From Asanoa hainanensis (GTDB lineage Bacteria > Actinomycetota > Actinomycetes > Mycobacteriales > Micromonosporaceae), in assembly GCF_900188485.1 (NCBI RefSeq), contig NZ_FZPH01000001.1:744001-808000 (forward strand): a DNA stretch of 64,000 bases, written 5' to 3'. Shown one piece after another: positions 8,241-40,473 of this stretch (position 1 is the first letter of the stretch; each line of letters opens with the position of its first letter). The notes beneath the pieces are model-generated. The model saw only the letters and a program-made list of their open reading frames with translations, had not been told where the DNA came from and searched no databases. Both the position numbers and the translations under genes were made by a program.

Positions 8241-9050
8241 TCACACTTGCCGTGGGTCGACGCCGATCGGTGCCAGCAGCTCGGCGGTGCGCTCGAGCAG
8301 GCCGTCCTGGACCGCCGGGTCCTCGGCCTCGGGGTTGGGGCGCGACGGCTCGCGCTCCTCGAAGTACCGCCCATTGATCTCGCCGGGCAGGGTGGCGACG
8401 TACTCGACGTTGGCGGCGCCGTGTTCGGGCGACTGGCCCTCGATCGAGAACATGCTGGCCAGCAGGCTGGAGCGGATGACGCCGGGGTGCATGCTCGCCG
8501 CCTCCGAGGTCGCGGCGTCGAGGCGGGCGGCCAGCCAGCAGGTGTACGTGACGATGGCCAGTTTCGACCGGGCGTACGCGGTGATGGCGGCATAGTTGCC
8601 GCGGGCCAGGCCGAGGTCGGTGAGGTCGAGGTGCTCGGTCGCGTGGGTCGCGGAGGCCATGTTGACGATCCGGCTGCCCCGGTCGCGCAGGCTCGTGCTC
8701 AGCATGACCGTCGACAGATAGTTGATCTGCAAGGTCGCCTCGATGCCGTCAGCGCTGAGCTCGCGGCGCGGGGTGCCCGGCCGGCCGGCGTTGTTGACCA
8801 GCAGGTCGACCCGGTCAGTGGCTTGCCGGACGTCGGCGGCGAGCCCGGCGATCTGGTCGAGGTGGTCGAAGTCGGCGGACAGGTAGGTCACCCGGCCGGG
8901 CAGGGTTTGGACGAAATCGGCCACCGCGGCGTGCGGTTGCGGGCCGTGCAGGACCAGGTGGCCGACCCGGCCCGCGAGCCGGACGGCCGTGGCGCGGCCG
9001 ATGCCGTCAGTGGCTCCGGTCAGCACCACCGTGCGGTTGGCCAGCTCCAC
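8241..9050 (-). CDS. short-chain dehydrogenase/reductase
   Basis: A 269-residue SDR with an NAD(P)-binding TGATDGIG motif (residues 11-18), the NNAG motif (LLVNNAG), a catalytic Ser in NMASATH and the catalytic YARSK pair (Tyr and Lys). The long insertion after the active site and the C-terminal EEREPSRPNPEAED are typical of the retinol dehydrogenase/oxidoreductase-like extended subgroup. Substrate unknown. It starts at ATG 9050, 19 bp downstream of the stop of the tiny membrane-protein gene on the same strand, so it may be the last gene of that operon. Confidence 0.9.
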   Translation of the reverse strand: MELANRTVVLTGATDGIGRATAVRLAGRVGHLVLHGPQPHAAVADFVQTLPGRVTYLSADFDHLDQIAGLAADVRQATDRVDLLVNNAGRPGTPRRELSADGIEATLQINYLSTVMLSTSLRDRGSRIVNMASATHATEHLDLTDLGLARGNYAAITAYARSKLAIVTYTCWLAARLDAATSEAASMHPGVIRSSLLASMFSIEGQSPEHGAANVEYVATLPGEINGRYFEEREPSRPNPEAEDPAVQDGLLERTAELLAPIGVDPRQV

Positions 9051-23497: not shown

Positions 23498-26400
23498 TCA
23501 CTCGACCATTTCGCGGATCATGGCTACCTGGCGGTCCAGCGCCTGCGAGTCGAGGACACCGTTGTCTTCCGCGGACGTGAAGAGGTTCGTGCCGAGGGTG
23601 AAGCCGTTCTCCTCGTACCACCGTTGGCGGCGCTCCCAGGACGCGCGATAGCCCGGGCGGTCCAGCATCCCGAGGTGTTCCCACACGATCGGGTCGCCGG
23701 CCGGGTCGACGATGGTGAAGTCGGGATGGATCGTACCGGTGTGGCCCCGCAGTGGGTGCTCGTAGAGATAGGGCACCCGCGCCGCGCGCAGCAGGTTGGC
23801 GATGATGACCTCGCTCTTCGAGCGGACCAGTTCGCCACCCGCGGTGCGGTGGACGAGGTGTTCCGCGAACGGGACGTCCGGGTCGAGGCGGCGGACTCCC
23901 CCGACGAACAGGTTGGTGTTCCGGCGGGCCGTCTCGCTGCGGCCCGGGCGGGTCAGCTCCCGGAGCGTCGTGACGTCCTGACCTTGCACCAGCAGCACCA
24001 GGCGTTCCTGCGCCCGCGTCAGCGCCGTGTAGACCAGCTCGCGCGAGAGCAGCCTGCTCTCCTCGGGCACGACCACGAGGACCGTGCGGAACTCGCTTCC
24101 CTGTGCCTTGTGGACGGTCAACGCGTACGCCAGCTCCAGGTCCACCTTCTCGGCGTTGCTCGACGCGATCCGGAAGTTGAAGTGTCGCTGTTTGCGGTCG
24201 GCGAACGCCACCCTGGCCCAGGGCCTCTTCTGCCTGGCCAGCAGTCCGACCTCGCCGTTCGCGAGATAGTCCCTGATCTTGACACCTTGCGCCCAGTCGT
24301 ACCCGTCGCGCATGCCGTTGCGGAGCAGCATGACCTTGTCCCGGACGACGATCTCCTCCGGGCCGTAGCTCACGCCGTAATGGGTGCGTGAGGCGGCCAG
24401 GTCCGCCGCACGGAAGTGCCGTTGGAGAAAGCGATTCAGCTCGTACGTGCCCAACTCGCGCATCCGCACGGGCGAGAGCACCTGGAATCGCTCGGCGCCG
24501 GAATGGTCGTCGAAGGGAACCCAGCCTTCGGCCGTCAGCCCCAGCGCTTTGGCGTACCCGGCGCTGTCGTCGGGTCCGGTCATCCCGAGCGCCTGCGCGA
24601 GCTCGTCCAGCAGGCGGGCGTGCAGCTCCGCCGGGGTCTGCCAGAAGACGAGACGGACGTCCGAGTCGGCGCCGCCGGCCCCCGCCGCCGAGCCCGTGCC
24701 GTCGGCGTTGGCCGCGAGCTCGCCGATCACCGACTCCGCGTCGACCTGCTGCGACTCGTTGGTGAACAGCGACGCCAGGCGCAGGATGTCGGACGGGCGC
24801 TCCCCCTTCGTGCGCAGCTCCACGGTGAGCCGCGCGAGGGCGTCGGCACGCGCCGAAGCGGACAGGTGCGCGACCAGGTCGGCGAACGGGCGGCCGACGC
24901 CGATCGGCGGCAGCTGGCTCGGGTCACCGACGAGGATCAGGCGCCGCACGTGCATCTGGTCGAGCGCCTCGAGCAGCGCCGCGAGCTGGTCCTCGGTCAG
25001 CATCGACGCCTCGTCGACGACGACGGTGCGTTCCTGGGCGTACTTCTCCGCGCCCTCGAACAGCACCCGCTGCCGCGTGCCGTCGTATCGCTTGAGCTTG
25101 TGGAGGAACTGCGCCACGTTGAGGGCCTTGGCGTTGGTCTTGTGCGCGAGTCGGACGGTCGCCTTGCCCGTCGGCGCCAGCAGGAGGACCCCTTCGGCGT
25201 TGAGCTTCGCCGAGGCGAGCAGGGCGCCCACGACGCTCGTCTTGCCGGTGCCGGCCGGGCCGACGAGGACGGCGAGCTTGCGAGTGGTGATCTGTTCGAG
25301 GGCCTCGGCCTGCTCGTCGAGGGCGCGGGCGTGGCGCTCGTTCGTCGCGTCCACGGTGCCGCCGCCGGCGGTGATCGCCGTGACGAGCAGGTCCCGCCAC
25401 CGCTCGCCCAGGCTCGGCAAGGAGCGGCCGGCCCGGGCGTCGAGCACGCGGGCCAGCGTGCGGCCGCGCTCGGCGAGCTCCCGGAGCTGCAGGCACGCGG
25501 GTCCACCCTCGGCGACCCGCACGAGCCGCAGGGTCGGGTGGTCGGCTCCGACGTGACCGGCGATCCAGTCGCTGGACACGACCACGGGCGGGCTGAGCGC
25601 GAGGTCGGCGATCCGGCTGAGCACCTCGTCGACCCGCAGCAGCGCGTCACCCTCGGCCGCTGCCTCGCGCAGGAGCGTGACGACGGTCGCCGCGACGCGC
25701 CGCTCGTCGCCCGCCGAGTCGACGTGGCTGGGTGGCGGGAGCGGGGCGCGGACCGCGACGGTCGGGTCGGGCAGCAGCCCGCGGTCCACCGTCGGGAGGG
25801 ACACCGGCAGGTCGACGCCGTCGCCCAGGTCGACCTCGGCCACCAGGTACGGGTTGCGCAGCAGGTCCGCGTCGGAGATGGGCCGGGTGGTGGCGTCGTC
25901 GCGGAGGCCCGGTTCGAGCCAACGCTTGGCGGCCGCCGTGGTCAGGGCGAACCGGCTCAGCAGCTTGACCAGGTCACGCCGCGGCTCCGGCAGCGCGGTC
26001 CAGGTCTTGCGGGCGGCGGCCAGGTCGGGCTCGTACACCCGATTCGGTGGCGTTCCGACGCCGCGCAGCAGGGCGTCCAGGAGCGGCCACGGGTCCGCCG
26101 CGGGTGCGAGGCTGCCGTCGCGGCGCAGGTCCAGGAGCAGGGAGGTGGCGAGGCGCAGGCCGAGCGCTTCGAGCACGGCGCCGGCGCCGGGGAACGCGCC
26201 CCGGTCCAGCCAGGTCTCCGCGATTCGGGCGTTGAGCCATTCCTCCCGGTCGGCCCACGGCCCGGTCGCGACTCCGTGCCGGATGACCGCGCGGACGGCG
26301 GTCAGCGCGCGCTCCAATGTGGTCAGTGCGACGTCGGGGCCGATGACCTCGCTGCCGTAGGAGAACCCGGCGATCTGGGCGCTCTCCGGAAAGACGGCGA

Positions 26401-27172
26401 TCTCCCCCAGCAGCTCCCGGCGGCGCGCGTCCTCGGCGGGATCTCCCGTCGCCGCGAGGTACGCGTGGTACGGGAGCAGTAGGCCGTCGGCGCCCTCCGG
26501 TCTGATCGAGTGGCTGACCATCCGCTCCCACAACGGAAACGTCGGCGATCCGGCGGGCGCCTCGTGGTCGATGATCCCGCTGAGCTTCGTGATCCGGCCG
26601 ATGCCGACCACCAGCCGGTTGATGTGGTCGCCGAGCGGGTGGCCGGACTTGGTGTAGAAGAGCACCAGCGAACCGTCGGGCGATATCTGCCGGAAGCACG
26701 CGTCGCTCAGCTCGCGCTGGCGAGCGGCCGCGAACACCCAGGGCGAGGGGAACGGTGGCTCCTGGTCCGGCGAGAGCGCTTCGGGCAGCCGTTCCTCGAT
26801 GGTGGCCGACCGCGAGCGCAGCATCCACGCGAACGGCGTGGCGAACGTGGTGTATTCCGGAACCTTCAGCACCGTCGGCAGCAGGTGGCCGTGCGTCGCC
26901 TGGGTCTTGGGAATGCTGGTGTACGGGTGCCGGAACTCCCTGATCCAGGGCGTCGGGTTCATGAAACCACCTGACTCGCCCGCGCAGGGCGGCAGGCCGG
27001 ACGGACCGAGGACGTCGAACGTGCGGCTCGCCTTCGCCAGCTCGTGCGCGTCGTCGCGTGACTCGCGGATCCGCGGCAGGTCGAGACAGTAGGGGTTGGC
27101 CGTCGGGTGCGCGCACACCGTGCCGTTCCATGCGCTGTCATGCCATGCGGTGCGGATGGTCAGATGCTGCAT
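23498..27172 (-). CDS. RecD-like superfamily 1B helicase with C-terminal nuclease domain
   Basis: 1224 residues. An N-terminal region of about 600 residues is of unknown fold (opening HLTIRTAWHDSAWNGTVCA; later LVLFYTKSGHPLGD). Next comes the helicase: Walker A VGPAGTGKTS (about residue 640), Walker B VVVDEASMLTEDQ (about 720), GDPSQLPPIGVGRPF, and a UvrD-C-like end YALTVHKAQGSEF...VYTALTRAQERLVLL. The last 110 residues look like a PD-(D/E)XK nuclease (LVRSKSEVIIANLLRAA; IHPDFTIVD; IVWEHLGM). ATG 27172 follows GGAGAAACC. It is third in a minus-strand operon after the Rad50-like ATPase and a small helical protein. I infer an anti-phage DNA-destroying effector; no exact named system was recognised. 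Confidence 0.85.
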   Translation of the reverse strand: MQHLTIRTAWHDSAWNGTVCAHPTANPYCLDLPRIRESRDDAHELAKASRTFDVLGPSGLPPCAGESGGFMNPTPWIREFRHPYTSIPKTQATHGHLLPTVLKVPEYTTFATPFAWMLRSRSATIEERLPEALSPDQEPPFPSPWVFAAARQRELSDACFRQISPDGSLVLFYTKSGHPLGDHINRLVVGIGRITKLSGIIDHEAPAGSPTFPLWERMVSHSIRPEGADGLLLPYHAYLAATGDPAEDARRRELLGEIAVFPESAQIAGFSYGSEVIGPDVALTTLERALTAVRAVIRHGVATGPWADREEWLNARIAETWLDRGAFPGAGAVLEALGLRLATSLLLDLRRDGSLAPAADPWPLLDALLRGVGTPPNRVYEPDLAAARKTWTALPEPRRDLVKLLSRFALTTAAAKRWLEPGLRDDATTRPISDADLLRNPYLVAEVDLGDGVDLPVSLPTVDRGLLPDPTVAVRAPLPPPSHVDSAGDERRVAATVVTLLREAAAEGDALLRVDEVLSRIADLALSPPVVVSSDWIAGHVGADHPTLRLVRVAEGGPACLQLRELAERGRTLARVLDARAGRSLPSLGERWRDLLVTAITAGGGTVDATNERHARALDEQAEALEQITTRKLAVLVGPAGTGKTSVVGALLASAKLNAEGVLLLAPTGKATVRLAHKTNAKALNVAQFLHKLKRYDGTRQRVLFEGAEKYAQERTVVVDEASMLTEDQLAALLEALDQMHVRRLILVGDPSQLPPIGVGRPFADLVAHLSASARADALARLTVELRTKGERPSDILRLASLFTNESQQVDAESVIGELAANADGTGSAAGAGGADSDVRLVFWQTPAELHARLLDELAQALGMTGPDDSAGYAKALGLTAEGWVPFDDHSGAERFQVLSPVRMRELGTYELNRFLQRHFRAADLAASRTHYGVSYGPEEIVVRDKVMLLRNGMRDGYDWAQGVKIRDYLANGEVGLLARQKRPWARVAFADRKQRHFNFRIASSNAEKVDLELAYALTVHKAQGSEFRTVLVVVPEESRLLSRELVYTALTRAQERLVLLVQGQDVTTLRELTRPGRSETARRNTNLFVGGVRRLDPDVPFAEHLVHRTAGGELVRSKSEVIIANLLRAARVPYLYEHPLRGHTGTIHPDFTIVDPAGDPIVWEHLGMLDRPGYRASWERRQRWYEENGFTLGTNLFTSAEDNGVLDSQALDRQVAMIREMVE

Positions 27173-27187: not shown

Positions 27188-27544
27188 CTACGAGGAGCGC
27201 AGGTGCGTCAACAACGTCGTGACGTTCTCGTGCCAGCCGCGCAGCTCCGCGACGGTCGGCGCCAGTTCGTAGGTGTGGTGGTGCATCGCCCGCGACAGGC
27301 CGTGCCAGGCCGTGCGGGCCGTCGCGGCCGCCGCGGCGCCGGCGAAGGTGGGCAGTACCAGCAACTGGTGACGCATGACCCGGTCGGCGACCGACGGCGC
27401 GACCCGGTCCCAGTAGTCCCGGAGCCCCTGTTCGAGCGCGAGGCGGGTCAGACAGGCGGAGCCGCGCTGCCAGCAACGCCGCATGCTGGCCGGCGGGCGG
27501 ACGAGCAGTTCGCCGGCGGCGTCGAGATAGCCCTGTGGCGTCAT
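27188..27544 (-). CDS. small helical protein between the ATPase and helicase genes
   Basis: 118 residues; ATG 27544 overlaps the ATPase stop (ATGA). The protein is all helical with conserved-looking aromatics: PASMRRCWQRGSACLTRLAL, LRDYWDRVAPSVAD, MRHQLLVLPTFAG, then TAWHGLSRAMHHHTYELAP and ELRGWHENVTTLL. The RAMHHH stretch resembles the R-x4-H pattern of HEPN-type ribonucleases, which is a weak similarity. Tight coupling to both neighbours suggests an obligate partner (adaptor, toxin or inhibitor). Unrecognised family. Confidence 0.7.
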   Translation of the reverse strand: MTPQGYLDAAGELLVRPPASMRRCWQRGSACLTRLALEQGLRDYWDRVAPSVADRVMRHQLLVLPTFAGAAAAATARTAWHGLSRAMHHHTYELAPTVAELRGWHENVTTLLTHLRSS

Positions 27545-30003
27545 GACCGGCTCAGCCTCCCCACCACTGCCCGGGCGTCGGCCACCAGCGCCGCGAGGTC
27601 GCCGTAGGAGTCACCGTGTGCGCCGCGGTTGGCGAAGCCCACCACCCGCGGGGCCGCCGGGTGGAGCTTCTCCAGCGGGTCCCGCAGCTCCTTGAAACGT
27701 CGATGGTCCGACAGCAGCGCGAGCGCCAGGGTCGGCGACAGGCCCTGCGCGTCGTTGAGGGCCTGCTCGGTCTCCGCGATCGGCCGCCCGGCCTTGAAGT
27801 CCCGGGTGCGGATCAGCTCGTGGCAGGTGTATTCGAGAGCGTCGCGGACGAGGTTGCAGACCACCGGGCGGCGCACCGCGTCGGTCATCTCCTCGTCGCG
27901 TGCGACGACCATCGCGTCGTCGAGGTAGCGCCGCGCGGGATCGCCGTGCGCGTCACCGGCGACGGTGACCTGGGACTGGGCCAGGCGGCTGACGATCCGG
28001 ACCCGGGCCTGGAGCTGCAGGTGCCGCACCGCGGCCGGGAGGCGGTCGTCGTGGGTGAAGACGATGACCTGCCGATGGCGGGCCACCTGGTCCAGGACCC
28101 TGGCGAGGCCGTACACCTTGGCCGGGTCCATGGACTGCACCGGGTCGTCGATGACCAGGAAGCGGAACGGGCTCTCGGGCATGGTGGCGCGGGGCAGGAA
28201 GAGCGCGAGGGCCAGCGAGTGCAGCTCACCCTGGCTCATCACCCCCAACGCCGCACCGGGTACGCCGTCCACGTTGACCGACAGGTCCACCCGCCGGCTG
28301 TTGCCGGTGCCGGCGAGCTGGATCGAGCCCAGGTCCACATTGCTCTCCTGGCGCAACGTGTTCCAGATCTCGGTCGCCTCGGCGGCCACCGGTGCGAGCT
28401 TGTCGTTTCGGATCTGGCCGCCGACCCGCTGCAGCCAGGTGACCGCCGCCTTCAGCGCCGTGAGCATCCGCGCCGCCTGCCGGCTGGACCGCTCGGTGTC
28501 GATCCACGCGCGGAGCTGGTCGGCCAGCGGCTGCCAGGCCGCGTGCCGACGGTCGAGCGCCCGCCGGGCCGCGGCCTTGACCGGCAGCAGGGCGGCGACG
28601 AGCGCGTCGAAGGTGTCGAGCGCGGTCTCGGCGATCTTGCGGGCGTCGCCGGCGCCGATCAGGTCGTCCCAGTGCTGCCAGGCGAGCCGGGCGTCGGCCG
28701 ACTCCACCCCGTCGGCCCCAAGGTCCACGCCGAGTGCCGGCGGCAACGGCGCCAGCCACCCGCCCAGCGCACGACGGGCGTCCGACTCGGTCTCGTGCGC
28801 CTCGTCGAGCCGCTCCGCGCGCTCCGTCAGGCCGCGCAGCCGCGCCTGTGCCTCGGCGGCCCATTCGTCGTCCAGGGTGCGACCCCCGCACACCGGACAG
28901 GGCTGGCCCGGGTGGCCGGCGCGATGACGCAACGCGTCGCCGAGGAGCTTGGCGAGCGCCCAAGCCTCGTCCACCGACGTACCCGCCAGCTCGTCGATCT
29001 CCCGCAGCGCACCGCGGAGCCGCTCCACCAGCCGCACCAGATCGTCGCGGTCGGGCAGGTCGAGCACGTCGAGCTGGCGCAGCGGCACGCTGGTCGTGGC
29101 GTCGGCGGGCTCGTCGGTGGTGGCCAGCGTCCCGAGCTGGTCGAGGTCGGCGACCCGGCCGGCGAGCGCCTCTTCGGCGGCGCGGGCGCGCGGGTCGGTG
29201 TGCCGCGCGAGCGCGTCCCGCAGCTCCGGAAGCCGGGCAGCCGCGAGCTTGCGCCGGTCGTCCATCGCCCGGCGGGCGCTCTTGAGCGACGTCTCGATCT
29301 CCACGAGCCGGCCGAGGCCCAGGATGCGGTGCAGGGAGTCGTGCATCTCGCTGGGCCGGCCGCTGAGCAGACCACCGAGCTCCGCGTACGAGAGGAACGG
29401 GCGGTAGAGCTCCAACGGCTGCGCCCAGCCGAGGTCGGCGACCGACTGCCGCTTCTCGCCGGCGACCTGGAGAAACACCGTGCGCTCGTCGAGGCCGGCG
29501 CCGGGCGCCCAGTCGCACCGCACGGCGGCGCCGTTGCGCTGGCCCTCGACGCCGAGCCGCACGTGGATGCGCGGGCTCTCGGTGGCGTGCAGGTTGCGCC
29601 AACCGTCCTTCCAGACCGACGTGCGGCCGGACCACCGCTTGTTCTCGCCGGTCAGGGCGAGCTCGGCGGCCTCGGCGAAGCTGGACTTTCCCGATCCATT
29701 GCGTCCGGTCACGATGGTCAGTCCGGGGCCCGGCACGAGGTTGAGGGTGGCGGTGGGTCCGATGCCGCGGAACCCGGTCACCTCGATGCTTTCCAGGTAG
29801 GTCCCGATCGGCTCGGCGGTCTCCCGCTCGCTCGGCGCGGGTGCCGGCCGGCGCACGTCCGCGCCGCCGAGCACCGAGGACAGCTCCTCGTCGCCGAACA
29901 CGGCGGCGATGACCAGGTCCTTGGCGGCCTCGGCCAGGTCGGCGTGGTCGAGGTGGTCGAAAATGAGCCGATCGACGGTGTCGTCCTGCGGGTCGACGGT
30001 CAT
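27541..30003 (-). CDS. Rad50/SMC-like ATPase with zinc-hook-like CxxC
   Basis: 820 residues from ATG 30003, after a GGAGG ribosome site. Order: a short N-terminal helical region, Walker A VTGRNGSGKSSFAEA (about 98-112), coiled-coil arms with CPVCGG at about residue 368 (zinc-hook like), ABC signature LGVMSQGELHSLALALF, Walker B FLVIDDPVQSMDP and H-loop VIVFTHDD. The C-terminal ~150 residues are helical with EYTCHELIRTR and FANRGAHGDSYGD, HEPN-like in style. It probably senses or handles DNA ends and licenses the helicase-nuclease encoded downstream. Longer in-frame starts up to 30138 would lie in the leader and are rejected. Confidence 0.85.
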   Translation of the reverse strand: MTVDPQDDTVDRLIFDHLDHADLAEAAKDLVIAAVFGDEELSSVLGGADVRRPAPAPSERETAEPIGTYLESIEVTGFRGIGPTATLNLVPGPGLTIVTGRNGSGKSSFAEAAELALTGENKRWSGRTSVWKDGWRNLHATESPRIHVRLGVEGQRNGAAVRCDWAPGAGLDERTVFLQVAGEKRQSVADLGWAQPLELYRPFLSYAELGGLLSGRPSEMHDSLHRILGLGRLVEIETSLKSARRAMDDRRKLAAARLPELRDALARHTDPRARAAEEALAGRVADLDQLGTLATTDEPADATTSVPLRQLDVLDLPDRDDLVRLVERLRGALREIDELAGTSVDEAWALAKLLGDALRHRAGHPGQPCPVCGGRTLDDEWAAEAQARLRGLTERAERLDEAHETESDARRALGGWLAPLPPALGVDLGADGVESADARLAWQHWDDLIGAGDARKIAETALDTFDALVAALLPVKAAARRALDRRHAAWQPLADQLRAWIDTERSSRQAARMLTALKAAVTWLQRVGGQIRNDKLAPVAAEATEIWNTLRQESNVDLGSIQLAGTGNSRRVDLSVNVDGVPGAALGVMSQGELHSLALALFLPRATMPESPFRFLVIDDPVQSMDPAKVYGLARVLDQVARHRQVIVFTHDDRLPAAVRHLQLQARVRIVSRLAQSQVTVAGDAHGDPARRYLDDAMVVARDEEMTDAVRRPVVCNLVRDALEYTCHELIRTRDFKAGRPIAETEQALNDAQGLSPTLALALLSDHRRFKELRDPLEKLHPAAPRVVGFANRGAHGDSYGDLAALVADARAVVGRLSRS

Positions 30004-30022: not shown

Positions 30023-30165
30023 ATGGATGGCGACACGGTGAACCCGCCCGGGCCGATGTCGGCCGGGCGTGCGGTCAAGCGAATGGGGTGGCGCGCCCGG
30101 GCAGGGAAACCCGGACCGGAAGCATGGGCGGCAGCCAAGGCGTACTCGGCTCGCTCGGTGAAAGC

Positions 30166-30232
30166 GACACTAGCACACTCGGGCGTGAAAGCAACGTCAA
30201 ACCGTTTACACGCCCCAGGCGTCGTGTAGAGT
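30166..30232. promoter_or_regulatory. overlapping divergent promoters of the defence island with internal inverted repeat
   Basis: Rightward: TTTACA (30205-30210), 16 bp, TAGAGT (30227-30232), 41 bp before the methyltransferase-like gene. Leftward: TTGACG (complement of 30195-30200) followed by TGTGCTAGTG near 30168-30177. The two -35 elements are only 4 bp apart. An inverted repeat TACACG-N10-CGTGTA (30207-30212 / 30223-30228) fills the rightward spacer and would let one repressor block the promoter. The HTH domain of the first rightward gene product is the obvious candidate ligand. Confidence 0.6.
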
Positions 30233-30272: not shown

Positions 30273-32420
30273 ATGCCCAGACATGCCCAGGTGACCGCCG
30301 CCGAGATAAGCCGGCTGGCGGGCGTCACGCGTGCCACTGTCAGCAACTGGCGCCGGCGGCATTCCGACTTCCCGGCCCCGAGCGGCGGCACCGACACCAG
30401 CCCGGCGTACGACCTCGACGCGGTCCAGACCTGGCTCGCCGCCCGGGGTCAACTGCCGGCCACCTCGGCGGCCGACGACCTACGCACCGCGGCGCGCGCC
30501 GCCTGGGCCGGCCCGAGCACCCTGCTGCCCCTGGTGCTGGCCGCCTCCCGGATGACCGAGAGCGACCTGAAACAGCTCGTCGACCTGCCCGACACTCAGC
30601 TCCCCGGTCAGGCGTCGCGCGCGATCCGGCCCTATCTCGACGAGATTCCCGGGGCCGCGGGCACCACGTACAGCGCACGGGACGTCGCGCCGCTGCGCGC
30701 GCTGTTGCGCTGCGTCGCCGAGGAGGGCGCGCGACGGGCCACGGAGGTGCTCGCGGAGAGCGACCCCGACGGCAGCTACGCCAGCGGCATGTACGACACG
30801 CCCGCCCCCGTCGCCTCCTTGATGGCCGAGATGCTCGCCGAGCCGGGCGAGCCGTATCCCGCTGTCGTCCTGGACCCCGCGTGCGGCGCGGGCGGCCTGC
30901 TGCTCGCGGCCGCCGCTCGCGGTGCCGAGCGGTTGTGCGGCCAGGAGATCCTCGCGTCACAGGCCGCGCAGGCCGCCGTGCGGCTGGCTCTCCAGACCGA
31001 GACCACCAGGGCCCAGGTGACGGTACGCGCGGCCGACAGCCTCCGCGCCGACGCGTACCCGGCCCTGGTGGCCGACGCGGTCCTGAGCACGCCGCCCTAC
31101 GGCAACCGCGACTGGGGTCACGAGGAGCTGGCGTACGACTCGCGCTGGGTCTACGGCCTTCCCCCGAAGAGCGAGTCGGAGCTCGCCTGGCTCCAGCACT
31201 GCTTCGCGCACCTCGCCGAGGGTGGCCGCGCCATCCTCCTCATGCCCCCGGCCGCCGCGGAACGCAGCGCCGGCCGCCGGATCAGGGCCGAGCTGCTCCG
31301 CAGCGGCGCGCTGCGCGCGGTCATCGCGTTCCCGCCCGGGGTCGCGCAGCCGCTGCACATCGGGCTCCAGCTCTGGGTGATCGAGCGCCCGCACCCGCAG
31401 GGCGCGTTGCCCCGGACCGTCCTCATCGTCGACACCGTCCCGACCGGCACGCCGGCGACCGGGCAGCCGCCGAGCAAGCGGCAGACGATGGACTGGCCCG
31501 CGGTGCGGGAGAACGCCCTGCGCGCCTGGAACGACTACGACCGCCACCCGAACAACTTCGACCCGGTCCCGGGCGTTGCACAGGCCATGCCCATCATCGA
31601 CCTGCTCGACGAGACGGTCGACCTCACGCCCGCCCGGCACGTCCGGGCCACCCCGGTGCCGGCGATGCCCGACGAGCTGGCCGCGATGAGCTTCGAGCTG
31701 CGTTCGCGGATGCGGCGCGCGGCGACGGGGCTGCTCACGCTCAGCGGCGGTCAGCCCTGGGCCGCGGTCGGCAGCGGTCCGCGGTCGTGGCGCACGGCCA
31801 GCATCGCCGACCTGCTGCGCGGCGACGCGCTGACCCTGCTGCGGGCGCCGGCCGCGCTCCGCGGCCCCATGCCCGTGCCCGCTCTACCGTCCGCGCCGCG
31901 CGTGCTGACGGCCCACGACGTGACCGCGCACCGCCCGGCGTCCGGACCGGCGGAGGAAGAGCCGGCGGGTGCCGAGGTCGAGATCCGCGCGGGGGACGTC
32001 ATCCTGCCGGAGCTGCTGCACAATGGCGGCGGCACCGCCCGGGTAGCCGACGCCCGCGACGCCGGCCACCGCCTCGGCCGGCACCTGCATCTCCTGCGGC
32101 CCGACCCGACCCGCCTGGACCCGTGGTTCCTGGCGGGTTTTCTCAGTGCCGAGGAGAACCTCAGCTCGTCGTCGTCGGGCACCACCGTCGTGCGCCTCGA
32201 CCCCCGCCGCCTGCGGGTGCCGCTGCTGCCGCTCGCGGAGCAGCGACGCTATGGCAGGGCCTTTCGGCAACTCAGCGCGTTACGCAGCGCGGCCGACATC
32301 GCCCACCGCCTCGCCGACGAAACCGCCCGCACCCTCGCCGCCGGCCTCACCGGTGGCGCACTGGAACCACCCTGCTCCCCCGGCCAGCCTGACGAAGGCA
32401 CATTGGAAGGATCCCGTTGA
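30273..32420 (+). CDS. HTH-N6 adenine methyltransferase-like protein with TRD-like C-terminus, catalytic motif altered
   Basis: 715 residues. Residues 6-60 form a MerR/excisionase-like HTH (VTAAEISRLAGVTRATVSNW). The central part is a gamma-type N6-methyltransferase: FxGxG-like motif I DPACGAGGLLLAAA (from Asp201), and the catalytic motif position reads LSTPPYGNRDWG, with Thr273 where NPPY/NPPF enzymes have Asn. The C-terminal 220 residues look like a type I specificity half (WFLAGFLSAEENLSSSSSGT; LRVPLLPLAEQRRYG). So DNA recognition and SAM-fold are retained while catalysis is doubtful. It leads the Hsd operon (TTGA overlap with HsdM). Possible roles: self-contained methylase, non-catalytic sensor, or autoregulator of the divergent promoter. 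Confidence 0.8.
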   Translation: MPRHAQVTAAEISRLAGVTRATVSNWRRRHSDFPAPSGGTDTSPAYDLDAVQTWLAARGQLPATSAADDLRTAARAAWAGPSTLLPLVLAASRMTESDLKQLVDLPDTQLPGQASRAIRPYLDEIPGAAGTTYSARDVAPLRALLRCVAEEGARRATEVLAESDPDGSYASGMYDTPAPVASLMAEMLAEPGEPYPAVVLDPACGAGGLLLAAAARGAERLCGQEILASQAAQAAVRLALQTETTRAQVTVRAADSLRADAYPALVADAVLSTPPYGNRDWGHEELAYDSRWVYGLPPKSESELAWLQHCFAHLAEGGRAILLMPPAAAERSAGRRIRAELLRSGALRAVIAFPPGVAQPLHIGLQLWVIERPHPQGALPRTVLIVDTVPTGTPATGQPPSKRQTMDWPAVRENALRAWNDYDRHPNNFDPVPGVAQAMPIIDLLDETVDLTPARHVRATPVPAMPDELAAMSFELRSRMRRAATGLLTLSGGQPWAAVGSGPRSWRTASIADLLRGDALTLLRAPAALRGPMPVPALPSAPRVLTAHDVTAHRPASGPAEEEPAGAEVEIRAGDVILPELLHNGGGTARVADARDAGHRLGRHLHLLRPDPTRLDPWFLAGFLSAEENLSSSSSGTTVVRLDPRRLRVPLLPLAEQRRYGRAFRQLSALRSAADIAHRLADETARTLAAGLTGGALEPPCSPGQPDEGTLEGSR

Positions 32421-34438
32421 ACAGCAGCAAGCACACCGAGCTGGCAAACCACGCCTGGTCGGTCGCCGACCTCCTTCGCGGCGACTATAAGCAGTCCGAC
32501 TACGGCAAGGTCATCCTGCCGTTCACCGTGCTGCGTCGGTTGGAGTGCGTGCTGGAGCCGACCCGGGACGCGGTACGCGAGACCTACGCGAAGTTCGACG
32601 GCCAGGACGTCGACGTGGCGCGCTTCCTGCGTCGTGCCGCCGGGCACAGCTTCTACAACACGAGCCGCTACACGTTGAAGTCGATCACCGGTGACGGTGG
32701 GCAGGCCGAGAAGCACCTGCTGTCCTACATCGGGGCGTTCTCCGAGAACGCCCAGCAGGTGTTGCATCGCTATGAATTTCCCCAGCAGATCCGCCGGCTC
32801 GCCGGAGCGAACCTGCTCTACCAGGTGGTCGGCCGGTTCGCAGATCTTGATCTGCGGCCGGTCGAGATCGACGAGCGCGGCCAGTCGCGGGTCGTGGTCT
32901 CCAACCACCAGATGGGGTACGTCTTCGAGGAGCTGATCCGCCGCTTCGCGGAGCAGTCCAACGAGACCGCCGGTGAGCACTTCACGCCGCGCGAGGTCAT
33001 CGAGCTGATGGTGAACCTGCTGGTCGCGCCGGACGACGACGCGCTGAGCATCCCGGGCGTCGTGCGCACTGTCATGGACCCGGCGTGCGGCACGGGCGGC
33101 ATGCTGAGCGCGGCCGAGGAACACATCACGCGCCTCAACCCGTCCTCCACCGTGGAGGTGTTCGGCCAGGAGCTCAATCCCGAGTCGTGGGCGATCTGCC
33201 GTTCGGACATGATGATCAAGGGCCAGGACCCGGAGAACATCAAGTTCGGCAACTCCTTCAGCGACGACGGGCACCGCGGCGAGCACTTCGACTACCTTCT
33301 GGCGAACCCGCCGTTCGGCGTCGAGTGGAAGAAGGTCAAGGAAGAGGTAGAGGACGAGCACGAGAAGCTTGGCGAAAGCGGCCGCTTCGGTGCGGGCCTG
33401 CCTCGCATCAACGACGGCTCGCTGCTGTTCCTCCAGCACATGATCTCGAAGATGAAGCCGGTCACCGCGGACAACAAGGGCGGCAGCCGCATCGCGATCG
33501 TCTTCAACGGCTCGCCCTTGTTCACCGGTGCGGCCGAGTCGGGCGAGTCGCGGATCCGCCAGTGGATCCTGGAGAACGACTGGCTCGAGGGGATCGTCGC
33601 CCTGCCGGACCAGCTGTTCTACAACACCGGCATCTCCACGTACTTCTGGATCCTGACCAACCGCAAGTCACCGGACCACCGCGGCAAGGTCGTGCTGCTG
33701 GACGCCCGCGACTACTTCGCCAAGATGCGCAAGTCACTGGGCGACAAGCGCAAGTACCTGACCAGCGACCAGATTTCCGAGATCACGAGCCTCTACACCG
33801 AGGCTCTGCAGGTCGTCGACAACCCCGAGCACCCGCTGCACAAGAAGGTCAAGGTGTTCGCCAACGAGGACTTCGGCTACCGCCGGATCACCGTCGAGCG
33901 CCCGCTCAAGCTCCGCTTCGAGGTCACCGAAGAAACCCTGGCCCAGGTACGCGAGTCGAAGCCCCTCCAGAAGGCCCTCGACATCGCCGGCTTCGAGATG
34001 GCTCTGAAGCCACTCGTCGGACGCTCGTGGACTACCAAGCGCGCAGCGTGGGACGCACTTCGTACGGCGATGGCCGAGGCCGGCGTGCTGTGGCCAACCG
34101 GCGCCCCCGTCCAAAAGGCACTACGCGACGTCATCGGCATCCGAGACCCAGAGGGCGAGGCGCAGCTCATCAAGGGCGAGCCCGAGCCGGACCCGGACAT
34201 GCGCGACTACGAAAACGTGCCGCTGCAGGAGGATATCGAGGAGTACCTCCGCCGCGAAGTGGTGCAACACGCCCCGGGCGCTTGGATAGACCACACCAAG
34301 ACGAAGATCGGCTATGAGATCCCCTTCACGCGCCACTTCTACGTTTACAAGCCACCCCGACGCCTTGCCGAAATTGACGCAGACCTGAAGGCGCTTGAAG
34401 CCGAAATTCAAGCCCTTCTCGGTGAGGTGACCCTGTGA
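32417..34438 (+). CDS. hsdM: type I restriction-modification methyltransferase subunit HsdM
   Basis: 673 residues; methylates adenine within the site chosen by HsdS. N-terminal HsdM helical domain (SVADLLRGDYKQSDYGKVI), motif X region EHFTPREVIELMV, motif I MDPACGTGGML, and intact catalytic motif LLANPPFG. The C-terminal part (RLAEIDADLKALEAEIQALL) is a coiled coil for HsdS contact. The start is a TTG (32417) overlapping the TGA of the preceding gene, with GGAAGG upstream; this rare start could keep HsdM at a set ratio to the upstream protein. It overlaps hsdS by GTGA. Confidence 0.95.
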   Translation: MNSSKHTELANHAWSVADLLRGDYKQSDYGKVILPFTVLRRLECVLEPTRDAVRETYAKFDGQDVDVARFLRRAAGHSFYNTSRYTLKSITGDGGQAEKHLLSYIGAFSENAQQVLHRYEFPQQIRRLAGANLLYQVVGRFADLDLRPVEIDERGQSRVVVSNHQMGYVFEELIRRFAEQSNETAGEHFTPREVIELMVNLLVAPDDDALSIPGVVRTVMDPACGTGGMLSAAEEHITRLNPSSTVEVFGQELNPESWAICRSDMMIKGQDPENIKFGNSFSDDGHRGEHFDYLLANPPFGVEWKKVKEEVEDEHEKLGESGRFGAGLPRINDGSLLFLQHMISKMKPVTADNKGGSRIAIVFNGSPLFTGAAESGESRIRQWILENDWLEGIVALPDQLFYNTGISTYFWILTNRKSPDHRGKVVLLDARDYFAKMRKSLGDKRKYLTSDQISEITSLYTEALQVVDNPEHPLHKKVKVFANEDFGYRRITVERPLKLRFEVTEETLAQVRESKPLQKALDIAGFEMALKPLVGRSWTTKRAAWDALRTAMAEAGVLWPTGAPVQKALRDVIGIRDPEGEAQLIKGEPEPDPDMRDYENVPLQEDIEEYLRREVVQHAPGAWIDHTKTKIGYEIPFTRHFYVYKPPRRLAEIDADLKALEAEIQALLGEVTL

Positions 34439-35691
34439 GTTCGGACCTACTCCCACTGCGTCGAATCACAAAGGTAATCAACGGAGGGACGCCGTCACCG
34501 GACGACGCGAATTGGAACGGCGACGTCCCATGGGCCACACCAGCCGATTTCGGCGCAGCGTTCGCCCCAATTACCGCGACGCGTAGGACTTTGACCGCGC
34601 TTGGCGCAAAGGTTGGCTCGACAATCGTCCCGGCAGGTGCGATTTTGCTATCCACGCGGGCCCCAATCGGTTATGTTGCTCTGGCAAGCACGCCAATGGC
34701 ATTCAATCAAGGATGTCGTGCGCTCGTTCTAAACGATAACGTGGATCCGCGTTTCATCGGATACCAGCTGGAATCAATGCGTCCCGATCTCCAAGCTCGC
34801 GGGCTGGGCACGACATTTGTTGAGCTTTCGTCCGAATCCTTAGCATCGGTTCCGGTCGTCATCCCACCTTTACGTGAGCAACAACGCATCGCCGACTTCC
34901 TCGATGGCGAAATCGCCCTCATCGATCGACTTCAGATTGCGACACAGCGACAAATTTCGTTGATGGTCGAACGTCGTGGCGCGGCGTTCCATCACGCGAT
35001 CGAAATCGAGGGAGGCCCCGGTCTCGATATACTTAGTCCGCGCGCTGAAGCCGACCACTGGGACATGGTTCCATTAAACCAAGCACTAACGCAATTGACT
35101 AACGGATATGTAGGACCGACTCGCGATATCCTGGTCGATCAAGGAGTCCCCTATCTTCAGTCCTTACACATAAAGGACGGTCGCGTCGACTTCGAGCGTC
35201 GCCCATATTTCGTATCTGCGGATTGGGCTCGGGAGCGACCTCGAATAAGTTTGGGAATCGGCGATGTCCTGATCGTCCAAACTGGCGCGATTGGCGAAGT
35301 TGCGATTGTTGACGAACGAAGCGCTGGCGCGAGTTGTCACGCCCTCCTGATCGCAAGGGCAAATAAGGCGATCCTTGATCCCACTTATCTATGGCACGCA
35401 CTGCGCAGCCATTGGGGGAGGAACATTCTGCTTCGTGAGCAGACTGGAGCCCTTCACCCTCACCTTGAGGCCGGGAATGTCCGGTTCATAAATTTACCCA
35501 TCGCAGACCTTCGCACGCAGAGGCGTGTCGTTGAGCGGGTCGACGAAGTTGTTCTTGACATGAAAAGAGTCGAACGCCTTCTCGGAGTGCGCCTAAATCT
35601 TCAAACTGAGCGTAGGCGCTCGTTGATTACGGCAGCGGTTACCGGGCAGGTTGACGTGTCGACGGCGAGTGGACGAGGGATCGAGGGCTGA
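34435..35691 (+). CDS. hsdS: type I restriction-modification specificity subunit HsdS
   Basis: 418 residues with two target recognition domains, each followed by a helical spacer: TRD1 from SSDLLPLRRITKVINGG to PLREQQRIADFLDGEIALID, TRD2 from WDMVPLNQALTQLTNGYVGP to TQRRVVERVDEVVLDMKRVE. It directs both HsdM and HsdR to a bipartite DNA target. Start GTG 34435 overlaps the hsdM stop. The DNA is clearly less GC-rich than its neighbours, down to about half G+C in 35040-35300, as is usual for exchangeable specificity genes. Confidence 0.95.
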   Translation: MSSDLLPLRRITKVINGGTPSPDDANWNGDVPWATPADFGAAFAPITATRRTLTALGAKVGSTIVPAGAILLSTRAPIGYVALASTPMAFNQGCRALVLNDNVDPRFIGYQLESMRPDLQARGLGTTFVELSSESLASVPVVIPPLREQQRIADFLDGEIALIDRLQIATQRQISLMVERRGAAFHHAIEIEGGPGLDILSPRAEADHWDMVPLNQALTQLTNGYVGPTRDILVDQGVPYLQSLHIKDGRVDFERRPYFVSADWARERPRISLGIGDVLIVQTGAIGEVAIVDERSAGASCHALLIARANKAILDPTYLWHALRSHWGRNILLREQTGALHPHLEAGNVRFINLPIADLRTQRRVVERVDEVVLDMKRVERLLGVRLNLQTERRRSLITAAVTGQVDVSTASGRGIEG

Positions 35692-35697
35692 GCAGAG

Positions 35698-38600
35698 ATG
35701 GGCGCCATACACCACGAGTCGGCCTTCGGCGACGCGATCGCCACAGCCCTTCTTGCCAGCGGTTGGATCGAAGGCAACCCCGCCGCTTATCGCGCCGAGC
35801 TTGGCCTCGACACCGGTGAGCTATTCACGTTTATCGGCGCTACGCAGGCCGAGCAGTGGGAGGAGCTGCTTACCTACTACGGCGGGGACCCGGACGCTGC
35901 GCAACGGGGGTTTGTCAAGCGACTCGATCAAGACATCGCGACCAAAGGGCTGCTCGACGTGCTCCGCAACGGGGTCAAAGACCACAGTGTGCGGATTCGG
36001 GTCGCTTACTTTAAGCCATCCTTTGTGGAGTCGGACGCCATTCTGGCCGACTATCGCAGGAACCGGCTTACCGTCGTTCGGGAGCTGGCGTATGCGACCA
36101 AGCAGGCCGACCGCGGTCACCGGCTTGATCTGACGTTGATGCTCAACGGGATCCCGGTTGCGACCGCTGAGCTCAAGAACCCCCTCACCGGGTCTGGGGT
36201 TGAGCACGCCAAGGAGCAGTATCGGAACGACCGCGACCCTACCGAGCTCATCTTCACCCGCCGGGTCATCGCGAACTTCGCCGTCGACCCCGACCTGGTC
36301 TTCGTCACCACCCAGCTGCGCGGCCCGCAGACCCGGTTCCTGCCCTTCAACACCGGCAGCAACGGGCCCGGCAAGCCCGGTGGCAAGGGGAACCCGGCGG
36401 CGACCGAGTTCGGCAAGTACGCGACCTCGTACCTCTGGGACGAGATCTGGCAGCCCGACAACTGGCTCGATCTCCTGGAGCGCTTCGTCCACCTCCACCA
36501 GGAGAAGGGGCCCGACAAGCGCACCAAGAAGTCGCTGATCTTCCCCCGCTACCACCAGTGGCACGCGGTGAAGAAGCTGACCGCGCACGCGGCCCGCCAT
36601 GGCGCCGGGCACAACTACCTGATGATGGCGTCGGCCGGCTCCGGCAAGTCCAACGCCATCGCCTGGCTCGCCCACCGACTATCGTCGCTGCACAGCGAGA
36701 GCGACCCCGGCACCCCGGTCTTCGACAAAATCCTCATCATCACCGACCGGCGGAACCTCGACTCGCAGCTCCGCGACACCATCGGCTCCTTCGAGCAGAC
36801 CGCCGGCCTCGTGATCAAGATTGACGAGAAGCACGGCGCCAAGTCGGAACAGCTGGCCAAGGCGCTCTCGCAGGAGACTGGCAAGATCGTGACCGTCACG
36901 TTGGCCACGTTTCCGGCCCTCGTTGACTACCTCAAGCGCAACCCGACCGAGATTCGCGGCAGTCGGTTCGCCATCGTCGTCGACGAGGCGCACTCGTCGC
37001 AGGCCGGCGAGGCGGCTACCGACGTGCGGCGGGTGCTGCGCGACCTCGGCCTCGATGCCGACGACGACGAGAAGGGCGCCGCCAGCGCCGACGGCCCGCA
37101 GACCGCCGACGAGAAGCTGGCGGCCAGCGTCCGGAAGCGGCAGCGCAGCCAGAGCCTGTCCTACTTCGCCTTCACCGCCACGCCGAAGCACAAGACGCTC
37201 GAACTGTTCGGCACTCTCGGGGACGACGGCAAGTACCACCCGTTCCACACGTACTCGATGCGCCAGGCGATCGAGGAGGGCTTCATCCTCGATCCGCTGC
37301 GCAACTACGTCACCTACGACACCTACTGGAAGTTGGTCAACGAGAACCCGGACGAGCGGGAGGTCGACTCGTCGAAGGCCAACAAGGAGCTGGCCCGGTA
37401 CGCGCTGACCCACGACTCGACGGTCGCCCAGCACGCGCAGATCGTCGTCGAGCACTTCCGGGCGCACACCGCGGGTCGGCTCGGCGGCCGGGCCAAGGCG
37501 ATGGTCGTCACCGCCTCGCGGCAGAGCGCGGTGCAGATGTCCCGGGCGATCAAGCGGTACCTCGGGGATCGCGACTACCCGGACCCGGGTGTGCTGGTCG
37601 CGTTCTCCGGCAGCCTGACCTACGAGGGCGAGGAGGTCACCGAGTCGAAGGAGAACGGCGGCCTGCCGGAGTCGGGTCTGGCCAAGGCGTTCGCCTACAC
37701 GCGGGCCGACGACAAGACCGCCCGCGCGGGCACGTCGGCGGGGCAGCGCGAGTACCGGATCCTCGTGGTCGCGGAGAAGTACCAGACGGGCTTCGACCAG
37801 CCGCTGCTGACCACCATGTACGTCAACAAGAAGCTCGCGGGTGTCTCGGCCGTGCAGACCCTGTCGCGGCTCAACCGCACCGCCGACCGCAAGAGCCAGG
37901 GCGACCTCGCGGTGCTGGACTTCGTCAACGACGCCGAGGACATCAAGGAGGCGTTCCGGCCGTACTTCGAAGAGGCCGAGACCCTCCCCTCCGACCCGAA
38001 CCTGCTCTACCAGGCGCAGAGCCGGGTGATGGCCGCGGACCTGCTGGTCGACGCGGAGATGCAGTCGTTCGTGGAGGCCTACCTCGCGGCTGAGGAAACG
38101 GCCGCCGGCAACGCGAACAAGTGGGCGAAGCTCCACGCCGAGCTCTACCGCCACCTCGAGCCCGCCGTCGAGCGCTTCGAGGTGCTGCTCGACAGCGAGG
38201 ACGAGGCGGACCTGGAGACCGCGGAGGCGTTCCGCGCGAACCTCAACGACTACGTCCGCAAGTACGGCTTCCTCGCCCAGATCGTCCCGTACGCGGACCC
38301 CGAGCTGGAACGGCTCTACCTCTACGGCCGCCACCTGCTCAATCGACTACCCCGGCGCGACGACGGCGGCGTCGACATCGGCGAGGTCGACCTCAGCCAC
38401 CTGCGGGTGGAGAAGACCGGCGAGCACAACGTGAGCCTCGACCCCGAGGGCCCGGCCGAGATGAAGGGGTTCGGCGACGGCTCCGGCGGGGCGAAGGAAC
38501 CTGAGAAGGGGCTGCTCTCCCAGCTCATCGACCGCTTCAACGAGCGATTCGGGACCAGCTTCACCGAAGAGGACGTCGTCCAGCCGTTCAACGACGCGCT

Positions 38601-38838
38601 GGCCGAGCCGAAGGTCCGCCAGGCCGCCGTCGCCAACGACGAGGAGAACTTCGGCCGCGTCTTCATCCCGGTCTTCGAAGACAAGATGATGGACCATTTC
38701 GAGACGACCGCCGACCTCGGCAAACGGTACTTCGGCCCGGAGCCCGACTTCCGCAGCTCGCTCAACCGCAGCGCCCGTAGCGCCGCGTGGCGGCTCATCC
38801 GCCGCCAGGAAGGGGTCGTAGACGACGAGGCGGCGTGA
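35698..38838 (+). CDS. hsdR: type I restriction enzyme subunit HsdR
   Basis: 1046 residues; ATP-dependent translocase and endonuclease. The N-terminal nuclease has the PD-(D/E)XK pattern RLDLTLMLNG...ATAELKNPL (Asp near 144, ELK near 160). The motor follows: Walker A MASAGSGKSNAIAW (about 310), DEAH box VVDEAHSSQAG, motif III FAFTATPKHKT, and late helicase motifs EKYQTGFDQPLL and LSRLNRTADRKS. The C-terminal helical region binds the HsdMS core. ATG 35698 lies 6 bp after the hsdS stop. The first ~500 bp share the lower GC of hsdS. Confidence 0.96.
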   Translation: MGAIHHESAFGDAIATALLASGWIEGNPAAYRAELGLDTGELFTFIGATQAEQWEELLTYYGGDPDAAQRGFVKRLDQDIATKGLLDVLRNGVKDHSVRIRVAYFKPSFVESDAILADYRRNRLTVVRELAYATKQADRGHRLDLTLMLNGIPVATAELKNPLTGSGVEHAKEQYRNDRDPTELIFTRRVIANFAVDPDLVFVTTQLRGPQTRFLPFNTGSNGPGKPGGKGNPAATEFGKYATSYLWDEIWQPDNWLDLLERFVHLHQEKGPDKRTKKSLIFPRYHQWHAVKKLTAHAARHGAGHNYLMMASAGSGKSNAIAWLAHRLSSLHSESDPGTPVFDKILIITDRRNLDSQLRDTIGSFEQTAGLVIKIDEKHGAKSEQLAKALSQETGKIVTVTLATFPALVDYLKRNPTEIRGSRFAIVVDEAHSSQAGEAATDVRRVLRDLGLDADDDEKGAASADGPQTADEKLAASVRKRQRSQSLSYFAFTATPKHKTLELFGTLGDDGKYHPFHTYSMRQAIEEGFILDPLRNYVTYDTYWKLVNENPDEREVDSSKANKELARYALTHDSTVAQHAQIVVEHFRAHTAGRLGGRAKAMVVTASRQSAVQMSRAIKRYLGDRDYPDPGVLVAFSGSLTYEGEEVTESKENGGLPESGLAKAFAYTRADDKTARAGTSAGQREYRILVVAEKYQTGFDQPLLTTMYVNKKLAGVSAVQTLSRLNRTADRKSQGDLAVLDFVNDAEDIKEAFRPYFEEAETLPSDPNLLYQAQSRVMAADLLVDAEMQSFVEAYLAAEETAAGNANKWAKLHAELYRHLEPAVERFEVLLDSEDEADLETAEAFRANLNDYVRKYGFLAQIVPYADPELERLYLYGRHLLNRLPRRDDGGVDIGEVDLSHLRVEKTGEHNVSLDPEGPAEMKGFGDGSGGAKEPEKGLLSQLIDRFNERFGTSFTEEDVVQPFNDALAEPKVRQAAVANDEENFGRVFIPVFEDKMMDHFETTADLGKRYFGPEPDFRSSLNRSARSAAWRLIRRQEGVVDDEAA

Positions 38839-38904
38839 TAGAGATCGGTGCGACAGTCAACACTGATCGTCGGCCGAGGCAGTCGCGGCGGGACGGAGAA
38901 CGTG

Positions 38905-40473
<1,569 letters not shown>

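Follow-up and report, generated by a model that had tools for sequence, protein, structure and literature searches.

The window that we analyzed (a 64,000-nucleotide stretch of Asanoa hainanensis DNA, taken at its full length) contains an intact open reading frame (ORF) at 30273-32420 on the plus strand that encodes a 715-amino-acid protein, here called P1. P1 heads a same-strand operon, P1-HsdM-HsdS-HsdR-Ser/Thr kinase. By their Pfam domains, genes two to four encode HsdM (32417-34438, +; HsdM_N and N6_Mtase domains, with an intact NPPF motif), HsdS (34435-35691, +) and HsdR (35698-38838, +; HSDR_N, SWI2/SNF2 and T1R_D3-like domains). With these three encoded together, the operon is of the type I restriction-modification (R-M) kind, and the window HsdR scores below the TIGR00348 cut-off (175.1 versus 284.55). 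The NPPF motif is kept in all 73 HsdM homologs examined. The last gene of the operon (38848-40473, +) encodes a PknB-like Ser/Thr protein kinase with TPR, recognized by Pfam and PADLOC profiles.

An earlier reading of this DNA, made from the letters alone (the sequence-only reading), described P1 as a methyltransferase fold with an intact motif I, a motif IV in which Thr replaces the catalytic Asn, an excisionase-like helix-turn-helix (HTH) and a specificity-like C-terminus. We found all of these parts. The translation of 30273-32420 contains motif I, DPACGAGG (residues 201-208; 30873-30896, +), and has LSTPPYG as motif IV, with Thr273 (codon ACG; 31089-31091, +) replacing the catalytic Asn. 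Motif IV is defined as N/D/S-PP-Y/F. Of the two motifs expected in an active type I M-kind protein, P1 therefore has motif I, for S-adenosylmethionine (SAM), and lacks motif IV. It scores 110.2 bits against N6_Mtase (PF02384; cut-off 20.4), which places it in that fold. The N-terminal piece gave weak Pfam matches, both below their cut-offs (HTH_23, 7.5e-4; HTH_17, 2.9e-3), and an AlphaFold2 model has two helices, two strands and a helix at residues 9-57.

The model (mean predicted local distance difference test score 89.3, predicted template modeling score 0.69, from a 56-sequence alignment) contains a winged HTH at about residues 1-62 (30273-30458, +), a helical domain at 66-162, the methyltransferase fold at about 170-390, a target recognition domain (TRD) at about 505-650 and a long C-terminal helix at 654-693. 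The TRD and helix together (residues 505-693; 31785-32351, +) resemble part of an S subunit. Profile positions 562-692 are similar to the type I S subunits 5ybb_D (5.3e-6) and 3okg_A (6.1e-6); these are whole-sequence E-values, and no single stretch falls below 0.001 by itself. In structure comparisons (VIA-align), residues 65-460 matched the type I M subunit 3lkd_B (Z 32.1, root-mean-square deviation (rmsd) 4.4, 367 aligned) and residues 64-461 matched the M subunit 7vru_A (Z 31.3, rmsd 4.6, 378 aligned). Residues 68-696 also matched the Vibrio vulnificus methyltransferase 7eew_A (Z 26.0, 540 aligned), with an rmsd of 24.8 that limits the likeness to the order of the parts. As modeled, P1 is a winged HTH fused to an M and half-S protein.

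We found that the lineage of P1 has lost the catalytic Asn. A tree was built by a quick method with single support values from 119 distinct P1-like ORFs, each starting at or before query residue 25, ending at or after residue 640 and scoring at least 250 bits, with duplicates merged. At position 273 these homologs have Asn (83), Ala (16), His (12), Thr (2), Ser (2), Asp (2), Gly (1) or Arg (1). The window P1 groups with 16 relatives of the same bacterial family (55-77% identity) in a single clade, with a Shimodaira-Hasegawa-like approximate likelihood ratio support of 99, nested within lineages that have Asn. None of the 17 clade members has Asn; 14 have Ala, two have Thr (the window and locus L175) and one has Gly. 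Outside the clade, 53 of the 54 aligned homologs that are linked to HsdM have Asn and one has Ser. This is an unselected count, with loci L128 and L130 outside the alignment. The P1 copy of genome G329 (locus L039) is broken into three frames, failed the coverage rule and was left out of the tree. As judged from this tree, the catalytic Asn was lost once in the lineage of P1 and the loss is fixed in the clade. What is fixed is the absence of Asn (17/17) and not the Thr itself (2/17), whose fixation the sequence-only reading had proposed to check.

The same reading had named a sequencing error as something that would undo its case. Such an error was ruled out. The window codon, ACG, differs at two bases from either Asn codon, and Asn is also missing from 16 relatives. 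Clade members use GCN, ACC/ACG or GGC at this position, and a set of 52 HsdM-linked homologs with N-P-P uses AAC or AAT (these homologs were chosen for N-P-P, so their Asn is by construction). Motif IV has also changed elsewhere in the wider family: Streptomyces has a His-PPF group, and a further group, to which a second copy in the genome of the window belongs, has NFPF and a DFTSG-like motif I. That genome encodes two more P1-like proteins, L222 7925-9991 (NFPF, degenerate motif I) and L223 8969-10978 (NLPF). A Pfam scan of the neighbors of L222 named a BTAD regulator and a glyoxalase-like protein, and neither a kinase nor HsdM.

The loss of Asn was specific. We took the positions that are at least 93% conserved in the 52 N-P-P homologs and asked which are kept in the clade: 61 of 67 in the methyltransferase part, 31 of 31 in the HTH and 43 of 44 in the TRD. 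The six changed methyltransferase positions are 273 and five exchanges among L/I/M/F/V/Y/A/T. One of these is Tyr294, which is Phe in 16 of 17 clade members and is kept as Tyr in the window. All 17 members keep D201, P202, C204, G205, G207, Q224, D255, S256, P274, P275, Y276 and Tyr174; A203 is kept in 16 of 17, and position 225 is D or E. For the methyltransferase part, the ratio of nonsynonymous to synonymous substitution rates (dN/dS) was 0.28 in the clade and 0.31 among the N-P-P homologs; for the TRD it was 0.26 and 0.41, respectively. The value of 0.28 argues that the fold is not decaying. General decay as a pseudogene was ruled out by dN/dS, which is 0.11-0.47 depending on the region, and by the conserved methyltransferase positions that are kept.

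The balance of constraint within P1 differs between the two sets. Among N-P-P homologs, the methyltransferase part is more conserved than the TRD (68.6 versus 56.0% identity at 55-65% overall identity; 74.3 versus 64.0% at 65-75%). At matched bins in the clade the order is reversed (61.9 versus 65.2% and 66.6 versus 75.1%). The winged HTH is the best conserved part of P1, with a median identity in the clade of 89%, and the TRD has 74%. In contrast, the target regions of HsdS are hypervariable, with a median identity of 20-25% among 15 clade loci. The conservation of the P1 HTH and TRD next to hypervariable HsdS TRDs argues that P1, unlike HsdS, reads something constant, which is probably its own promoter. 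In the clade operons with these hypervariable HsdS target regions, HsdM and HsdR are 79-89% identical.

We found a conserved site, a putative operator, upstream of P1. Comparison of promoters gave the site GAAAGCAACGTCAA (30187-30200, +), with a second half-repeat, TGAAAGC, 27 bp upstream of it (30159-30165, +). The site ends 4 bp before the -35 box of a promoter-like pair (TTTACA, 30205-30210; TAGAGT as -10, 30227-30232; + strand). The pair itself comes from a pattern scan only, and the block is conserved in the clade: all 17 clade promoters have TGAAAGC-N3-GTCAA followed by the promoter region, and 14 of the 17 have a GAAARC repeat 27 bp further up. The promoter that the sequence-only reading had named, at 30166-30232, thus holds a deeply conserved and nearly unique site next to its -35 box.

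The site is conserved well beyond the clade. In a set of 94 loci (17 from the clade and 77 others, with no repeated contigs; one of them, L130, is a split ORF), the core GAAA[AG]C-N3-GT[CT]AA is present upstream of P1 in 86, once in each, in Micromonospora, Streptomyces, Actinomadura, Nocardia and others. The core lies 76-95 bp before the start used in 71 of these 86 loci. With both strands of the 94 loci counted (4.06 Mb), there are 89 core matches in all and only 3 are outside the P1-upstream ones. The exact form, TGAAAGCNNNGTCAA, has 40 matches in 354 genomes of the family. It lies approximately 65-100 bp upstream of P1 in all 17 genomes with an intact clade P1, in one genome with a broken copy and in G479, which has a further P1 homolog; the other 21 matches lie elsewhere. 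The 8.64 Mb genome of the window has one match to the exact form and three to a relaxed form, two of them far from P1. This single occurrence rules out the exact site as a genome-wide methylation motif. Furthermore, the site is constant while the target domains of the neighboring HsdS are hypervariable, which argues that it is not generally an HsdMS methylation site.

The type of site covaries with the type of HTH. Among the 119 homologs, 88 of 89 with a VTRAT or VSRAT HTH have the GAAARC form. Of those with a VGRAA HTH, 1 of 29 has the GAAARC form and 16 of 29 have a loosely defined GAACC form. The one remaining homolog has another HTH type and no site match. Likewise, six of the eight loci (of 94) that lack the core belong to the His-PPF group, in which the HTH has VGRAA instead of VTRAT, and most promoters of this group carry GAACCGAGTCAACA in place of the core. 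This covariation is the best in silico evidence that the HTH of P1 binds the site.

Additional copies of the site are present in other islands. We counted the exact form in 246 genomes of the genus of genome G161, which we take to be Streptomyces because the G161 P1 groups with Streptomyces proteins in the tree. There were 59 matches, of which 31 (in 30 loci) were inspected. Eighteen of the 31 precede a P1-type gene (16 identified by the HTH pattern and 2 by tblastn). The other 13 matches are in 12 genomes, all of which were searched for P1; 7 matches (6 genomes) are in a P1 island and 6 (6 genomes) are not. In five of the island genomes the extra site is 10.7-13.2 kb from P1, on the same contig, with the two on opposite strands. 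In the sixth, G806, P1 is on another contig and only the kinase of the system is near the site. The first six genomes were chosen for a site context that looked operator-like. Two others, G826 and G849, picked for having two matches each, have P1 at one match and the second match 24.7 and 8.7 kb from the first, respectively. The second site of G865 occupies the gap that precedes an OLD/GajA-like gene. G806 has two sites, flanked on one side by a gene for a type IIG restriction-methyltransferase (935 bits) and on the other by a gene encoding a product with the ATPase start also seen in G865. Second copies of the site, near OLD/GajA-like and type IIG genes, are at 8634 and 8919 in L264 and at 7832 in L265. 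These placements indicate that an island likely has more than one unit using the site.

In the window, the neighbor that could share the site is a divergent gene for an SMC/RecF-type AAA ATPase (27541-30003, -; start probably the ATG at 30003), identified by profile search and in related loci. The case for sharing is weak because seven clade loci in which no ATPase was seen keep the same site. The sequence-only reading had P1 control this divergent arm. The position of the site makes such control possible, and it is not required: no ATPase homolog was found within the stretch examined in 7 of the 17 clade loci (L172, L174-L176 and L178-L180). The ATPase is accompanied in related loci by a gene for a 118-amino-acid protein (27188-27544, -), and each of the two was found in 10 of 17 clade loci. 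The 118-amino-acid product has no Pfam match, and the products compared have in common an HH-rich stretch near YELAPT. Further out is a gene for a RecD-like helicase (23498-27172, -; PADLOC candidate PDC-S68, 1328 bits). It had no match in the related loci compared and was rejected as a part of the system; it is probably a separate defence gene.

The companions of P1 vary. We examined 80 loci of named genomes. HsdM and HsdR matches are beside P1 in 57, of which 35 also have the kinase in the examined stretch. P1 and the kinase occur without an HsdM or HsdR match in the examined stretch of 20 loci, two loci have HsdM only and one has none of the companions. The kinase is beside P1 in 55 of the 80 loci and was not seen in 25, of which 24 have HsdM; at some loci the ends of the examined flanks mean that a true absence of the kinase or HsdR is not always distinguishable. 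In L120, a SNF2-type helicase is in place of the usual effectors. In L109 (12150-18491), P1 is followed by a single 2113-amino-acid protein made of a Ser/Thr kinase, a DEAD helicase and an MZB domain, with a match to the MTES_1575 endonuclease that is below its cut-off. In L175 (13458-19652), L070, L073 and L074 there are approximately 2-6 kb between hsdS and hsdR, as if other genes were embedded there.

Based on these results we suggest, with a probability of about 0.7, that the P1 of this clade is a pseudo-methyltransferase that functions as an autogenous transcription regulator of the kinase-linked type I R-M operon. The idea of a regulator, also raised by the sequence-only reading, gains support from the clade-wide loss of Asn, from DNA-reading parts that are conserved above the methyltransferase core and from the promoter site. 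The winged HTH, probably helped by the half-S TRD, would bind, beside the -35 box, GAAAGC-N3-GTCAA together with the TGAAAGC repeat located 27 bp upstream, and binding would set transcription of P1-hsdM-hsdS-hsdR-kinase. Ending 4 bp ahead of the -35 box and with its repeat farther up, the site is placed in a way that fits repression and activation alike. The methyltransferase fold keeps a SAM-type pocket and the base-stacking PPY and lacks the amide that holds the target amino group, so that P1 would not write methyl marks; methylation in the operon would be left to HsdM-HsdS. The fold may serve as a DNA clamp, a dimer scaffold or a sensor of a ligand (SAM), and that it still has the SAM motif points to a structural or ligand role.

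A more specific proposal, which we regard as possible and rather doubtful, is that P1 was converted from a writer of methyl bases into a reader of them. Motif I is retained, the Tyr of PPY (Tyr276) and Tyr174 are kept in all 17 clade members, and Asn has been replaced only by small residues (Ala, Gly, Thr). With a small residue at 273, the pocket could accommodate a flipped base that has an N6- or N4-methyl group. P1 might then signal the state of methylation or SAM at its promoter, and an incoming phage that alters this state would cause release of the restriction operon and the kinase and, in some lineages, of further island effectors as well. If the pocket does read methylated bases, P1 would represent a natural conversion of a writer to a reader in bacteria.

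Several points weigh against P1 as a dedicated regulator. The site was defined by eye on these promoters before it was counted, and its placement was then tested on whole genomes. Twelve of the 29 promoters of VGRAA homologs match neither pattern, and the GAACC pattern is loose. The dS of P1 is 0.7-1.0, which is near saturation. At 75-90% overall identity, the difference between the clade (methyltransferase 78.1%, TRD 83.0%) and the N-P-P homologs (86.0% and 83.9%) is small. The methyltransferase fold is still under purifying selection, which indicates a role beyond simple operator binding. Lastly, linkage of sequences alone does not tell which protein binds the site. This last point leaves room for another regulator to bind the site, with P1 merely the first gene of the regulated operon. 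We consider that quite improbable: the site lies before P1 whether or not the locus has HsdM, the type of HTH covaries with the type of site, and the kinase, the companion in 55 of the 80 loci, shows no DNA-binding domain in Pfam.

Alternatively, P1 could be the catalytically dead partner of HsdM, and perhaps HsdS, in an asymmetric M1-M2 enzyme, in the manner of METTL14 with METTL3 or of the two M subunits of PacII, with promoter binding secondary or absent. The match of residues 64-461 to type I M subunits and the frequent presence of HsdM and HsdR beside P1 are in favor of such a partner, and two-M type I enzymes exist (PMC9613975, in its available text). However, P1 seems to work alone in the 20 loci that have it with the kinase and without an HsdM or HsdR match, and it has a conserved TRD of its own beside the hypervariable ones of HsdS. 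P1 stands at the head of different effectors and apparently does without HsdM, which argues against a role purely as a partner subunit, and we find this explanation unlikely. Least probable of all, in our view, is that P1 remains an active methyltransferase (N6-methyladenine or N4-methylcytosine) in which a T/A/G-PPY motif is tolerated. The conservation of motif I and PPY and the low dN/dS of the methyltransferase part would agree with continued activity, but three different side chains are found at position 273 and two of them, Ala and Gly, have no group to hold the amino group. In addition, the constraint on the methyltransferase part is relaxed relative to the TRD, and in the related M1 and M2 subunits of PacII, double pocket mutants that include Asn to Ala reduce methylation, according to the available text of PMC9613975.

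If P1 regulates as we propose, it would be a clade-wide case of a restriction methyltransferase that lost its catalytic residue while its DNA-reading parts stayed tight. With a defined promoter site, how a kinase-linked type I defence operon is regulated can be tested directly. The site is also rare enough to serve as a genomic tag. In the related genus it marks second island units (an OLD/GajA-like gene and a type IIG gene), which point to co-regulated defence islands.

The closest parallels to this arrangement are methyltransferases that regulate themselves. The N-terminal region of M.SsoII is predicted to contain an HTH, and the enzyme downregulates its own gene (PMC3978073); it binds a 15-bp quasi-palindromic site in its own promoter region that is distinct from its methylation site (PMC3978073; PMC3874152). 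As far as the available text of these reports goes, P1 resembles M.SsoII, M.Ecl18kI and M.EcoRII in having an N-terminal HTH region fused to a DNA methyltransferase (PMC3978073; PMC3874152). With respect to the presence of a site, it also resembles M.SsoII in having a conserved, dedicated one in its own promoter (86/94 loci and 17/17 genomes with an intact clade P1). In contrast to P1, enzymes of the M.SsoII type are active 5-methylcytosine methyltransferases; P1 belongs to the N6_Mtase family and lacks the 5-methylcytosine methyltransferase domain. P1 also differs from them in having a half-S TRD, in lacking the catalytic Asn and in leading a kinase-linked type I operon. RptR, a small separate repressor, controls a type I R-M island through direct promoter repeats and is conserved across bacteria, as described in the available part of PMC12255303. 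P1 differs from RptR in being a 715-amino-acid protein derived from a methyltransferase and in having a different site.

Other systems share parts with the P1 operon. PacII M1M2S (PDB 7vru/7vs4) has the M-subunit fold and two different M proteins, as does the P1 system, but both PacII M subunits are active, and P1 adds an HTH, outside the matched range of 64-461, and its own TRD (PMC9613975, within the text available). The support for P1-HsdM-HsdS as a two-M (M1M2S) enzyme consists of this similarity in fold. The HTH, methyltransferase, S, kinase and ATPase parts of the locus match the PADLOC profiles MAD1, MAD2, MAD5, MAD6 and MAD3 of the methylation-associated defence system (MADS), respectively, to different degrees. 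Scores fell far below the NCBIfam cut-offs for MADS: MAD2, 23.8 (P1) and 54.2 (HsdM) of 720; MAD5, 40.5 of 400; MAD6, 166.2 of 460. Unlike MADS as known from its profiles, the operon has HsdR, and its HTH and methyltransferase are one protein. P1 scores 646.8 bits against the PADLOC MTase_I profile PDLC03037, so the catalogue already lists this family under type I methyltransferases. The name of that profile says methyltransferase, and neither the loss of motif IV nor the promoter site is part of it. Among the matches listed by our literature search there was no paper on this operon or site. The system consists of known parts in a new arrangement, in which the proposed regulator is itself a disabled M and half-S protein, kin to the methyltransferases that regulate their own R-M systems.

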